DNA from: Actinoplanes octamycinicus | GTDB lineage: Bacteria; Actinomycetota; Actinomycetes; Mycobacteriales; Micromonosporaceae | Length of the DNA: 64,000 nt | Assembly (NCBI RefSeq): GCF_014205225.1 | Contig: NZ_JACHNB010000001.1 | Coordinates: forward strand, 868,001 to 932,000 | Direction of reading: 5' to 3' | Part shown: one piece after another, positions 39,385-42,688 of the stretch | Numbering within the stretch: position 1 is the stretch's first letter | How the letters are laid out: each line of letters starts with the position of its first letter | Made by a program: the position numbers and the translations under genes | Notes under the pieces: generated by a model | Told to the model about the DNA's origin: nothing | The model's input: only the letters and a program-made list of their open reading frames with translations | Databases searched by the model: none

Positions 39385-39606
39385 CTAGTAACCGCCGACG
39401 CCGAGTTCACGGGCGGCCTGCTTGCGGCCTTCCATGGCAATGCGGCGGGCGGAACGGTAAGCCTCAGGTGCACGGTCACTCTGAGGCTGACGCATTCGAG
39501 CCCTCGACAACGCTTCTTGGATGAGTCTCACTTTCATGGCTCCATTCGGACGCACGGTTTCGGTGCTCGGCTTTCGGATCTCGGTGGGGAGGGTCAGGTC
39601 GGTCAT
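39385..39606 (-). CDS. Small conserved-type protein coupled to whiB7
   Basis: 73 residues, MTDLTLPTEIRKPSTETVRPNG then a basic helical part (MKVRLIQEALSRARMRQPQ, YRSARRIAMEGRKQAARELG). Its ATG lies one base after the whiB7 stop (TGAGATG), so it is co-transcribed and probably translationally coupled. Not a family I can name. Being under the whiB7 leader, it should rise with ribosome-targeting antibiotics. Confidence 0.75.
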   Translation of the reverse strand: MTDLTLPTEIRKPSTETVRPNGAMKVRLIQEALSRARMRQPQSDRAPEAYRSARRIAMEGRKQAARELGVGGY

Positions 39607-39607
39607 C

Positions 39608-39970
39608 TCAGGCCGCCAGCCGCACGCTGTTGCGGGTCTCGAGACCGTTCGCGGCGAGCCGCTCCTCGACCTCGACGGCCAGCTCGGCGTCGCGAGCGAC
39701 GTCGGCCTTACGCGGACGGCCACGCGGCCGCTTGCGCGGAACCACGGCGCCGCGCTCGAAGATCTCGCCGCCCCAGACACCCCAGGGCTCGCTCCGCTCC
39801 ACCGCGCCGGCGAGGCACTCGACGCGCAGCGGGCAGTCCCCGCAGAGCGACTTGGCCAGCTCCAGCTGGGCCGGGGAGTCGGAGAACCACAGGTCCGGGT
39901 CGAACTTCCGACAGGGCAGGTTCGCCTCGATCTCGACGGTGATGTCGATCGGGGCCAGCGCCAGACTCAT
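39608..39970 (-). CDS. whiB7: WhiB7/WblC antibiotic-resistance regulator
   Basis: 120 residues. The four Fe-S cysteines are Cys20, Cys43, Cys46 and Cys52 (C-x22-CxxC-x5-C), followed by the sigma-factor-binding turn GVWGGEIF and a C-terminal AT-hook RPRGRPRK, which distinguishes WhiB7 from other Wbl proteins. WhiB7 binds domain 4 of the principal sigma factor and activates intrinsic-resistance genes whose promoters have an A/T-rich tract before the -35. A GAGAGGTGA ribosome-binding site precedes the ATG. The neighbours (ABC1 gene, uvrD2) match the M. tuberculosis locus. Expression is predicted to be set by the leader upstream. Confidence 0.95.
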   Translation of the reverse strand: MSLALAPIDITVEIEANLPCRKFDPDLWFSDSPAQLELAKSLCGDCPLRVECLAGAVERSEPWGVWGGEIFERGAVVPRKRPRGRPRKADVARDAELAVEVEERLAANGLETRNSVRLAA

Positions 39971-40044
39971 AAAGCCCGGTCACCTCTCTCTTCTCTTCGA
40001 TCTTCTGGATCGTTTCCGGGTGGTGCACCGGCCTGTGAGCCGGC

Positions 40045-40086
40045 AAAAAATTAAGGCCGCGGATCCCGGTTAGGGGTTCCGCGGCC
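40045..40086 (-). terminator. Attenuator terminator in the whiB7 leader
   Basis: On the minus strand GGCCGCGGA (40086-40078) pairs with TCCGCGGCC (40063-40055), extended inward by C/G pairs. It is followed at once by the T-rich tail TTAATTTTTT (40054-40045). This classic intrinsic terminator lies 75-115 nt before the whiB7 start and inside its own transcript, so it must act as an attenuator. Confidence 0.88.
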
Positions 40087-40133
40087 TCGAGGTGAGCCGG
40101 AGGTCTGGTCTGTCAGACCGGCCTTCCTCGAGG
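40087..40133 (-). promoter_or_regulatory. Antiterminator and stop-codon hairpin of the whiB7 leader
   Basis: The octamer CCTCGAGG occurs at 40126-40133 (inside the end of the upstream ORF) and at 40085-40092 (5' edge of the terminator). Being self-complementary, the copies can pair over 8-9 bp and would remove bases from the terminator stem. Between them GGTCTG/CAGACC (40102-40107 with 40114-40119) forms a hairpin holding the upstream ORF stop codon. Which structure forms should depend on ribosome position. Confidence 0.65.
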
Positions 40134-40421
40134 CGGGACACCGTCACCATCCGTGTAACGCTTGCTGGAGATGGCGTTGCCCTTGAACCCAGTGGTGCCG
40201 TTGGTGCCAGTGCTGCCCACGACGGCTCCGACGAGCACCCGCTCGACAGCCCATTCGCCCAGCTCGGCCTGGGACTGGCTGTGGATCTGGTGCGCCTGCG
40301 GAGCCAGGACACGCTCAGCGGCCAGCAGCGCCGACGGAGCGGCGGTGGCGGGCAGCGGAGCAGACGGAGCGCAGACAGACGGCAGCAGCGACGGACGCAT
40401 CAGCAGGCTGTTGATCCTCAT
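40113..40421 (-). CDS. Upstream ORF (leader) of whiB7
   Basis: 102 codons from ATG 40421, which has a very strong GGAGGAG ribosome-binding site 9 bp before it. The product (MRINSLLMRPSLLPSVCAPS...) has no motif I know. Its stop codon lies within the hairpin that precedes the attenuator, about 30 nt before the terminator stem. Regulatory upstream ORFs are established for whiB7/wblC of mycobacteria and Streptomyces, where slowed translation lets transcription pass the terminator. By position and layout this ORF is the equivalent. Confidence 0.8.
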   Translation of the reverse strand: MRINSLLMRPSLLPSVCAPSAPLPATAAPSALLAAERVLAPQAHQIHSQSQAELGEWAVERVLVGAVVGSTGTNGTTGFKGNAISSKRYTDGDGVPPRGRPV

Positions 40422-40500
40422 CGGTGCCACCTCCTCCGTAAAAAAACTGCACTCGTCGTTTGATCTCGCCCGGGATGGTTCCCCGGCAAGGTGTGTCCTG

Positions 40501-40560
40501 AGGCTATGCCTGCCCTACAGGAGAGGGCAAACGAATTAACCGACTAGTTTTCAAAGTTTT
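40501..40560 (-). promoter_or_regulatory. Candidate whiB7 promoter with A/T-rich upstream tract
   Basis: Minus strand: -35 TTGCCC (40530-40525), 18-bp spacer, -10 TAGCCT (40506-40501). Directly upstream of the -35 (40560-40531) is an A/T-rich tract containing TTTGAAAACTAG and TTAATTCG, the feature WhiB7 recognises with its AT-hook. This supports autoregulation. The tract overlaps the uvrD2 stop region. Confidence 0.65.
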
Positions 40561-42688
40561 TTCGGCCAAGATCATCGGGGCTCGCGCCGCCCACCAACGC
40601 GAAGACGGCGTCGCCGTACTGGCCCAGCTTCCGCGGGCCGATTCCGGCGATCGAAAGCAACTGGGCAGGATCGGACGGACGGCGTTCCGCGACGGCCACC
40701 AGGGTGGCGTCGGTGAACACGACGTACGCAGGGACTTTCAGCTCCGCGGCGGTGCTCGCCCGCCATTGCTGCAGCCGCTGGAAAAGGTCCTCGTCCATGT
40801 CCGACGGACAGGTCGGGCAGCGCCCCAGTTTGCGGTCGGCGCCGGCCAGCAGAGTGGCCCCGCAGACCCGGCAGGAGGACACCTTGGGCGGCCGCCGGTC
40901 AATTTTCTGACTCCGGGCCGCGGTGGTGGATTTCGCGAAGGTGCCACCGGAGCGTTCCAGCTGCGGCAGGAAACGGCACGGCCGGCGGGCCCGGCCGCCC
41001 GGCGCCCGGGACTGGCCGTAGGAGAGCCAGAGCAGCTGACGGGCCCGGGTCACGCCGACGTACAGCAGGCGGCGCTCCTCCTCCAGCTGCTCGGGAGTCT
41101 TCGCGTACGTCGTCGGCAGGGTCCCGTCGGCCAGCCCGACCAGGAAGACCGCGTCCCACTCCAGGCCCTTGGCGGAGTGCAGCGAGGCCAGGGTGACCCC
41201 GGCCACGGTCGGCGCGTGCTGCTGCTCGGCGCGGCGGGCCAGCTCCTCGTTGAAGGCGGCCAGGGTGACCTCGCGCTGCACCCGGCCGGCCTCGCCGATC
41301 GGCAGGATGACCGGCTCGGCGGCGTACTCCTCGGCGAGGGTGACCAGGGCGGCGAGCGCCTCCCACTGCTCCCGGGCGGCGCCGCCCGGCGGTGGCTGCG
41401 AACGGTTCCAGCCGGTCGCCGACAGCCCCTCGACCACCGCCTCGACCAGCGGGGTCTCGCCGGGGGTGGACCGCACCGCGGCGCGCAGGGCGACCATCGC
41501 CTGACGGACCTCGGCGCGCTCGAAGAACCGCTCGGCGCCGCGCACCACGTACGGCACCTCGGCCTCGGCGAGCGCCTCCTCGTACGACTCGGACTGCGCG
41601 TTGGTCCGGAAGAGCACCGCGATCTCGCTGGCCGGCGTGCCGGACGCGATCAGCTCCTGGCACCGGCGGGCCACCGCGTTCGCCTCGCCCGGCTCGTCCG
41701 GGAAGACCTTGAGCGTCGGCTCCGGCCCGGACGGGCGCTGCCCCTCCAGTTCCAGGCGCAGTTTCGCCTCGGTGCCCCGGGCCTGCCGGATCACCGCGTT
41801 GGCCAGGCCGACCACCTGCGGGGTGGAGCGGTAGTCCCGGACCAGGCGGACCACCACGGCGCCGCGCCAGCGACGCGGGAAGTCGATCAGGTACGACGAG
41901 GTGGCGCCGGTGAACGAGTAGATCGTCTGGCTGGCGTCGCCGACCACGGTCAGGTCGTCCCGGCCGCCCAGCCAGGCCTCCAGCAGGCGCTGCTGCAGCG
42001 GGTTGACGTCCTGGTACTCGTCGACCACGAAATGCCGGTACTGCGCCCGGATCTGGTCGGCCACGTCACCGTGCTCCTCGATCCCCCAGACCGCGGCGCG
42101 CAGCAGGTCCTCGAAGTCGATCACGCCCTGGCGGCGTTTGAGCGACTCGTAGGCGGCGAACACCTCGGCCACCCGGGCCGGCTCGAACGGGGGCTCACGC
42201 AGCGCCTTGGCGGCCGCGACGGCGTATTCGGACGGCTCGACGAGGGACGACTTGGCCCACTCGATCTCGCTGGCCAGGTCGCGGGCGACCGCCCGGTCGG
42301 CGCGCACCCCGGCACGGGCGGCGGCCAGGCCGACCACCCGGACCTTGCTCTCCATCAGCTCCGGCATGCCGCGGCCCTCGAGCAGCCGGGCGGAGAAGTA
42401 GCGCACCTGGCGCAGCGCGGCGGCGTGGAAGGTGCGGGCCTGCACCGCGCCGGCGCCCAGGCCGGTGAGCCGGGCGCGCATCTCGGCGGCGGCCCGGGCG
42501 GTGAAGGTCACCGCGAGCACGTGCCGCGGGTTGATCTCGCCGGACAGTGTCCGGTGCGCGATCCGATGGGTGATCGCCCGGGTCTTGCCGGTGCCGGCGC
42601 CGGCCAGGATGCAGACCGGACCGGCCGGGGCCGTCACCGCCGTCCGCTGATCCGGGTCGAGGCCGGCCAGCACCGATTCAGTCCGCAC
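40544..42688 (-). CDS. uvrD2: ATP-dependent DNA helicase UvrD2
   Basis: 714 residues. SF1A helicase motifs: Walker A GAGTGKT (residues 30-36), VVDEYQDVNPLQQ (Walker B), VVGDASQTIYSFTGA, LVRDYRST, TLASLHSAKGLEWDAVFLVGL and LLYVGVTRARQLLWLSY. The C-terminus has a tetracysteine zinc site (SCRVCGATLL, RCPTCPS) and an HRDC domain (~630-705), the layout specific to actinobacterial UvrD2. A 3'-5' helicase in DNA repair; essential in M. tuberculosis. It lies upstream of whiB7 in the same direction, and the whiB7 promoter overlaps its 3' end. Confidence 0.96.
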   Translation of the reverse strand: MRTESVLAGLDPDQRTAVTAPAGPVCILAGAGTGKTRAITHRIAHRTLSGEINPRHVLAVTFTARAAAEMRARLTGLGAGAVQARTFHAAALRQVRYFSARLLEGRGMPELMESKVRVVGLAAARAGVRADRAVARDLASEIEWAKSSLVEPSEYAVAAAKALREPPFEPARVAEVFAAYESLKRRQGVIDFEDLLRAAVWGIEEHGDVADQIRAQYRHFVVDEYQDVNPLQQRLLEAWLGGRDDLTVVGDASQTIYSFTGATSSYLIDFPRRWRGAVVVRLVRDYRSTPQVVGLANAVIRQARGTEAKLRLELEGQRPSGPEPTLKVFPDEPGEANAVARRCQELIASGTPASEIAVLFRTNAQSESYEEALAEAEVPYVVRGAERFFERAEVRQAMVALRAAVRSTPGETPLVEAVVEGLSATGWNRSQPPPGGAAREQWEALAALVTLAEEYAAEPVILPIGEAGRVQREVTLAAFNEELARRAEQQHAPTVAGVTLASLHSAKGLEWDAVFLVGLADGTLPTTYAKTPEQLEEERRLLYVGVTRARQLLWLSYGQSRAPGGRARRPCRFLPQLERSGGTFAKSTTAARSQKIDRRPPKVSSCRVCGATLLAGADRKLGRCPTCPSDMDEDLFQRLQQWRASTAAELKVPAYVVFTDATLVAVAERRPSDPAQLLSIAGIGPRKLGQYGDAVFALVGGASPDDLGRKNFEN

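Follow-up and report, generated by a model that had tools for sequence, protein, structure and literature searches.

The whiB7 locus and its leader

The window, a 64,000-nucleotide stretch of Actinoplanes octamycinicus DNA, carries on its minus strand a whole module of promoter, upstream open reading frame (uORF), two octamers, terminator and whiB7 between 40560 and 39608. Its features are listed below in the order of transcription, each with the evidence on which it was placed.

40532..40539, minus: A/T-rich tract TTAATTCG, just upstream of the -35 hexamer (sequence)
40525..40530, minus: promoter -35 hexamer TTGCCC (conserved block, 43 aligned family leaders)
40501..40506, minus: promoter -10 hexamer TAGCCT, after an 18-nt spacer (same conserved block, 43 aligned family leaders)
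40430..40437, minus: uORF Shine-Dalgarno GGAGGAGG, eight bases before the ATG (sequence)
40113..40421, minus: uORF, 102 codons plus the stop UGA, with an ATG start (list of open reading frames; comparison of Actinoplanes frames)
40135..40142, minus: 5' arm of helix P0, GGTGTCCC (own-versus-permuted pairing; 42-leader alignment)
40126..40133, minus: octamer 1, CCTCGAGG, 5' arm of antiterminator helix P1, inside the uORF end (pairing conservation)
40095..40123, minus: inner helix P2, 40123-40120 with 40098-40095 (fold; partial support from pair counts)
40102..40119, minus: hairpin P3, 40119-40114 with 40107-40102, which holds the uORF stop (predicted fold)
40085..40092, minus: octamer 2, CCTCGAGG, 3' arm of P1, its last bases common to the terminator (pairing conservation)
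40075..40080, minus: 3' arm of P0, GGAACC, within the terminator 5' arm (own-versus-permuted pairing; 42-leader alignment)
40054..40087, minus: terminator hairpin, arms 40087-40074 and 40067-40054 (fold; 99.4% of cells paired in 53 leaders)
40045..40050, minus: terminator T-run, T6 (sequence)
39976..39990, minus: whiB7 Shine-Dalgarno region GAGAGAGGTGACCGG (sequence)
39608..39970, minus: whiB7, 120 amino acids (open reading frame, Pfam Whib domain, PDB match)

Judged by its sequence matches, the gene downstream of the leader is a true WhiB7 orthologue. The product has a Whib domain (Pfam) and its best PDB match is WhiB7 at 116 bits, the next WhiB type (WhiB1) reaching 37 bits. The genome holds six WhiB-family places and one match to the window's WhiB7 at an E-value of 1e-12. 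WhiB7 is 98% identical in its closest named relatives, which are Actinoplanes of the family Micromonosporaceae, and matches were found in 60 of 60 sampled genomes of the genus, 117 of 121 of the family, 116 of 121 of the order and 169 of 197 of the class. In actinobacteria whiB7 is described as governing intrinsic resistance to ribosome-targeting drugs (PMC11550727, PMC9618640). A 73-codon frame (39385-39606, minus) begins one base past the whiB7 stop and may share its transcript. Directly upstream of the leader is a gene for a UvrD-type helicase with an HRDC domain (40544-42688, minus); its stop codon and the whiB7 -35 hexamer are 14 nt apart, and the end of this gene thus abuts the promoter-proximal bases.

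The promoter with an A/T-rich tract proposed in the initial annotation is supported by its conservation across the 43 aligned family leaders. We infer from the -10 hexamer that transcription starts near 40494, giving a predicted transcribed leader of about 525 nt; the 590 nt given earlier for the leader thus holds as the length of the promoter-inclusive region but not of the transcribed part. An E. coli-type consensus scan of 39950-40600 returned 0 promoters, and both hexamers differ greatly from the E. coli consensus. The hexamer TTAATT, 3 nt before the -35, agrees with the WblC box GAAAWY in 4 of its 6 positions, and GAAAWY occurs somewhere in the upstream region of 57 of 131 family leaders. 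The WblC autoregulation box GAAAWY is reported to sit 3 nt before the -35 (PMC7157823).

Strong matches to the element (97 to 117 bits) were single in each of 30 Actinoplanes genomes and lay just upstream of that genome's own whiB7, while matches elsewhere in these genomes reached at most 31 bits. A search of a phylum sample at an E-value of 0.01 found matches, several of them weak, in 18 of 149 genomes including the window's own. No Rfam family scored above its gathering threshold in the leader, the window's only such matches being two tRNAs; below the threshold the leader had four matches, the best (E-value 0.018) to a microRNA family. Within one limited library, our literature search found no Micromonosporaceae whiB7 leader.

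Terminator, octamers and the larger antiterminator

A Rho-independent terminator, conserved in the family, is predicted between the uORF and whiB7. The hairpin alone folds at -28.7 kcal/mol, three of its pairs have two-sided change in the 53 aligned leaders, and three bases (TAA) separate the stem from the T-run. The U-tailed terminator that had been read from the sequence is thus borne out as a conserved, covarying hairpin followed by T6, although the consensus scan of 39950-40600 returned 0 terminators. That negative scan and the interrupted T-run would suit a constitutive or Rho-linked terminator which acts independently of uORF translation, the uORF being incidental. We consider this very improbable given the conserved uORF frame, Shine-Dalgarno and distance from octamer 1 to the stop, the covariation of the antiterminator, and the experiments in related bacteria that reviews report (PMC11550727, PMC9618640).

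The two octamers had been proposed as the arms of an antiterminator. When the 590-nt leader was dinucleotide-shuffled 3000 times, a palindromic 8-mer recurring within 60 nt appeared in 12 of the shuffles. Across the family, full pairing of the octamers over their 8 positions is possible in 146 of 147 leaders, and both are CCTCGAGG in 119 of 147. In 14 leaders from 7 genera both arms are replaced, the pairing remains exact and neither arm is palindromic (for instance CCTCGAAG with CTTCGAGG, or CCTCGAGA with TCTCGAGG); 13 leaders preserve the octamer pairing through a G-U pair, and in 1 leader a single pair is broken. For L188 and L192, two additional family leaders (groups g14 and g15), no conserved attenuator core was found upstream of whiB7. 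Each octamer in the window is self-complementary, as are both in the 119 leaders above, which could indicate a pair of DNA operators for a regulator instead of RNA arms. We give this reading next to no credence and rejected it, because in the 14 leaders the palindrome is lost from both copies while the mutual complementarity is kept exactly. Further, the arms in other families are not palindromic and each fits its own partner alone, one octamer lies within the uORF, and both flank the terminator. The octamer pair is therefore strongly supported as an RNA helix by these comparisons, and its self-complementarity is, on the same evidence, incidental because it has been lost with exact compensation in 7 genera.

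The initial annotation had suggested aligning Micromonosporaceae leaders for covariation. In an alignment of 53 of the 146 usable leaders (g44 was omitted as a wrong whiB7 start had been picked by the script), P1 and P2 together have 11 two-sided cells, where shuffles average 1.3 and 0 of 500 are as high, these counts being of related sequences and not of independent events. Of the P1 and P2 cells, 94.7% are paired in this alignment as compared with 24-50% in slid versions. The earlier proposal that the octamers form a switch is thus upheld for their mutual pairing but not for their self-complementarity, and the antiterminator appears larger than the octamers.

In many genera the stretch of uORF codons leading into octamer 1 is GCGG-N-GTTCC, which is able to base-pair with GGAACCCGC, the 5' arm of the terminator. 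Across 40 genus representatives this P0 pairing is stronger with a leader's own partner (-13.4 kcal/mol) than with permuted partners (-12.7 kcal/mol; 0 of 20,000 permutations), and segments further upstream than the P0 arm reach only -5.6 to -7.6 kcal/mol. P0 is weak in the window (-7.5 kcal/mol). A second alignment, of 42 of the 147 leaders, gave 6 two-sided cells for the whole structure against a shuffled mean of 1.1 (0 of 500 as high). In it 88% of P0 cells pair and two P0 pairs have two-sided change, while single P0 pairs fail in up to 15 of the 42 leaders. Leader L146, which had no whiB7 start assigned, was used in the octamer count, the P0 comparison and the 42-leader alignment. On these alignments the antiterminator is a structure that extends beyond the octamers, its 5' half consisting of about the last 12 uORF codons and reaching the terminator 5' arm. 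Twelve codons are approximately one ribosome footprint.

The shared bases and the covariation indicate that antiterminator and terminator are mutually exclusive. Forced one at a time in the isolated RNA, each comes to -50.7 kcal/mol. Energy alone thus does not choose between them, which qualifies the attenuation model, although such equality would fit a switch set by ribosome position.

The 3' strand of the antiterminator may also have a second, translational role, in which CCGGCUCACCUC would mask GAGGUGACCGG, the ribosome-binding site of whiB7, and antitermination would free translation as well. This would be an addition to ribosome-mediated attenuation, not an alternative to it, and we regard it as doubtful. 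The candidate mask pairs in 94.0% of cells (53 leaders), the median duplex energy is -19.6 kcal/mol (146 leaders), and GAGGTGACCGG precedes whiB7 in 32 of the 44 leaders listed. Against this, the covariation is not above that of shuffles (42 of 500 and 54 of 500 were as high), and in 21 of the 23 odd leaders listed the window's Shine-Dalgarno region is a better partner for the leader's arm than the region of that leader itself. Conservation of the core bases of the whiB7 ribosome-binding site is in any case expected for pairing with 16S rRNA, which counts against masking. Masking is thus possible but was set aside as lacking covariation support. In the window, 39976-39990 (GAGGTGACCGG) can pair with 40089-40100 (CCGGCTCACCTC, the antiterminator 3' strand). 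The ACCGG that follows the whiB7 Shine-Dalgarno is conserved in 32 of the 44 leaders listed and could pair with the same strand.

Leaders from other families place these arms in a wider context. Among 72 of them, 66 have a Shine-Dalgarno-led uORF ending near the terminator; the other 6 were left out as having no terminator match or no such uORF near the terminator, and three outgroup loci (L092, L105 and L106) were dropped as their whiB7 could not be anchored. The antiterminator arms of these families differ, for instance CCTGGAG with CTCCAGG. In 29 groups including the Micromonosporaceae, each represented by one leader, own partners pair at -20.4 kcal/mol against -16.1 kcal/mol for permuted partners (0 of 20,000 permutations). 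Since the arms of other families differ yet match their own partner, CCTCGAGG is, on these comparisons, one version of a helix common to the class.

The uORF as a probably translated frame

The 102-codon uORF with a strong ribosome-binding site was confirmed at 40421-40113, with GGAGGAGG at 40437-40430. Its stop, as had been noted, falls within a hairpin: the UGA (40115-40113) overlaps the top of the predicted GGUCUG/CAGACC hairpin. The length of the uORF had been put forward as new, but among the whiB7 leaders sampled through the class long uORFs proved to be the norm. Family uORFs span 77-150 codons with a median of 96 (126 of 149 leaders, namely those that do not belong to group g12 and whose Shine-Dalgarno matches at 5 or more bases), and those of other families span 43-160 codons with a median of 87.5 (66 leaders), although the automatic choice of start may err in single leaders. 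A uORF of 102 codons is therefore ordinary among the leaders sampled, as it falls within the lengths found in other genera and families. In 126 of 143 uORFs of the family, octamer 1 begins 18 nt ahead of the stop codon.

Group g12 (L066, L070, L073, L190, L191 and L197) departs from this arrangement, in that none of its 6 leaders has an in-frame uORF stop before the terminator. In five of them the first in-frame stop comes 38-176 nt beyond the beginning of the T-run; in the sixth no in-frame stop was found before the first cysteine codon of whiB7. The antiterminator arms of this group are the exactly compensated CCTCGAGA and TCTCGAGG.

Of 62 Actinoplanes leaders, all 62 have an open uORF frame, as compared with 1 of 62 for the +1 frame and 24 of 62 for the +2 frame, whereas 41-72% of uORF copies remain open at simulated neutral divergences. 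This difference suggests selection for translation itself, an argument that is weakened by the shared ancestry of the leaders. The amino-acid sequence appears to be much less constrained. Over 561 pairs from 34 Actinoplanes genomes the pN/pS of the uORF was 0.94 against 0.15 for whiB7, and in 135 close pairs it was 0.78 against 0.13. By this measure the uORF body is evolving nearly neutrally, with little amino-acid constraint. Its composition is mixed, with 14% alanine over the 62 uORFs. Databases carry it as a hypothetical protein with 109 relatives at an E-value of 0.001, those shown by name being from Actinoplanes and close genera. The uORF probably serves regulation and does not represent a protein gene.

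We at first favored a different role for the uORF on account of its GVPPRGRPV end, namely that it makes an arrest peptide or an otherwise functional peptide whose end is an active motif read in the exit tunnel. The end G-x-P-P-R is conserved in the family, with the G present in 143 of 147 leaders through four codons and the first P in 147 of 147 through three codons, and the close pairs point to slight constraint. Arrest motifs with two prolines, among them RAPP and RGPP, have been described, actinobacteria included (PMC10987492). We now consider an arrest peptide improbable and dropped it, as P0 explains the fixed codons and the pN/pS is near 1. The near-neutral pN/pS argues against such a peptide, given the far lower value for whiB7 in the same genomes. 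Similarly, codon positions are fixed where they take part in the pairing of P0, P1 and P2, and the free third positions are unpaired. The uORFs of other families end differently where the helix differs, for example in WSPPV, and the window's own uORF end (DGVPPRGRPV) contains none of the RAPP-like four-letter motifs named for such peptides (PMC10987492). A weak peptide role may nevertheless exist.

Probable ribosome-mediated attenuation and related systems

Taken together, the conserved parts of the module and the covariation of both antiterminator and terminator agree with the whiB7 attenuation module described in the initial annotation. The leader very probably controls whiB7 through ribosome-mediated transcription attenuation; for Actinoplanes itself we infer the footprint logic, termination, read-through and drug induction. 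Transcription would begin near 40494 and the RNA would be translated from the strong uORF start. Under free translation, a ribosome at the end of the uORF would cover about its last 12 codons, and with them the antiterminator's whole 5' half, made up of P0, octamer 1 and P2. With this half hidden, the terminator at 40087-40045 would form and transcription would stop. If ribosomes were stalled in the first 90 or so codons, by a ribosome-targeting drug or a shortage of amino acids, or were not loaded at all, the 5' half would be exposed and could pair with octamer 2 and the terminator 5' arm. The leftover core hairpin would then lie away from the T-run and the polymerase would read into whiB7.

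This kind of switch is already known. Burian and Thompson in 2018 and Lee, Lee and Roe in 2022 reportedly set out uORF-mediated attenuation of whiB7/wblC, the 2022 paper being the key prior work. Transcription attenuation mediated by a uORF is described for whiB7 in mycobacteria and wblC in Streptomyces (PMC11550727, PMC9618640, PMC12121999, PMC4128351), and the statement in the initial annotation that uORF control is known in these organisms agrees with the mechanism as the reviews give it (PMC11550727, PMC9618640). As described, those attenuators share with the Actinoplanes leader an orthologous gene, a uORF with a Shine-Dalgarno, a terminator before the gene and an alternative antiterminator. 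The difference lies in the arms, which in Actinoplanes are the CCTCGAGG pair together with P0 and in the other sampled families are other sequences. What the present comparison adds is the set of compensated arms, an antiterminator of greater extent and the nearly neutral evolution of the uORF body.

The ilvB1/ilvBNC leader attenuators of actinobacteria also combine a uORF, a terminator and an antiterminator, and ribosome position likewise decides between them; according to their descriptions, a regulatory codon run senses named amino acids (PMC13236596, PMC10272879). We saw no regulatory codon run in the Actinoplanes uORFs of about 100 codons, as judged from composition and the listed peptides. 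The toiL uORF of E. coli topAI is similar in that one uORF is described as sensing several classes of ribosome-targeting drugs, but it precedes another gene in another bacterial group and is likened here by description alone (PMC12121999). The RAPP-like arrest peptides ApcA, ApdA and the RQH family share a proline-rich C-terminal end of the uORF and occur in actinobacteria too, but they are reported upstream of Sec/YidC genes (PMC10987492), whereas the Actinoplanes uORF has no RAPP-like end and its amino acids change almost neutrally.

We further propose, as an unlikely extension, that CCGGCUCACCUCGAGG is a three-way hub, serving as antiterminator partner of the uORF end, as base of the terminator and as mask of the whiB7 ribosome-binding site, with the uORF acting as a ruler indifferent to its own sequence. 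The evolutionary comparison itself, apart from any hub, predicts that the uORF body acts as an open frame and the last 12 codons as RNA, such that earlier stalls anywhere should induce. According to a 2025 paper, drug stalling inside the whiB7 uORF is untested so far (PMC12121999), and the compensated natural arms offer ready-made exchange alleles for a reporter test. If the hub and ruler reading is true, ribosome stalling would open whiB7 to transcription and translation at once, with the uORF reporting a stalled ribosome anywhere over about 90 codons while recognizing neither drug nor peptide.
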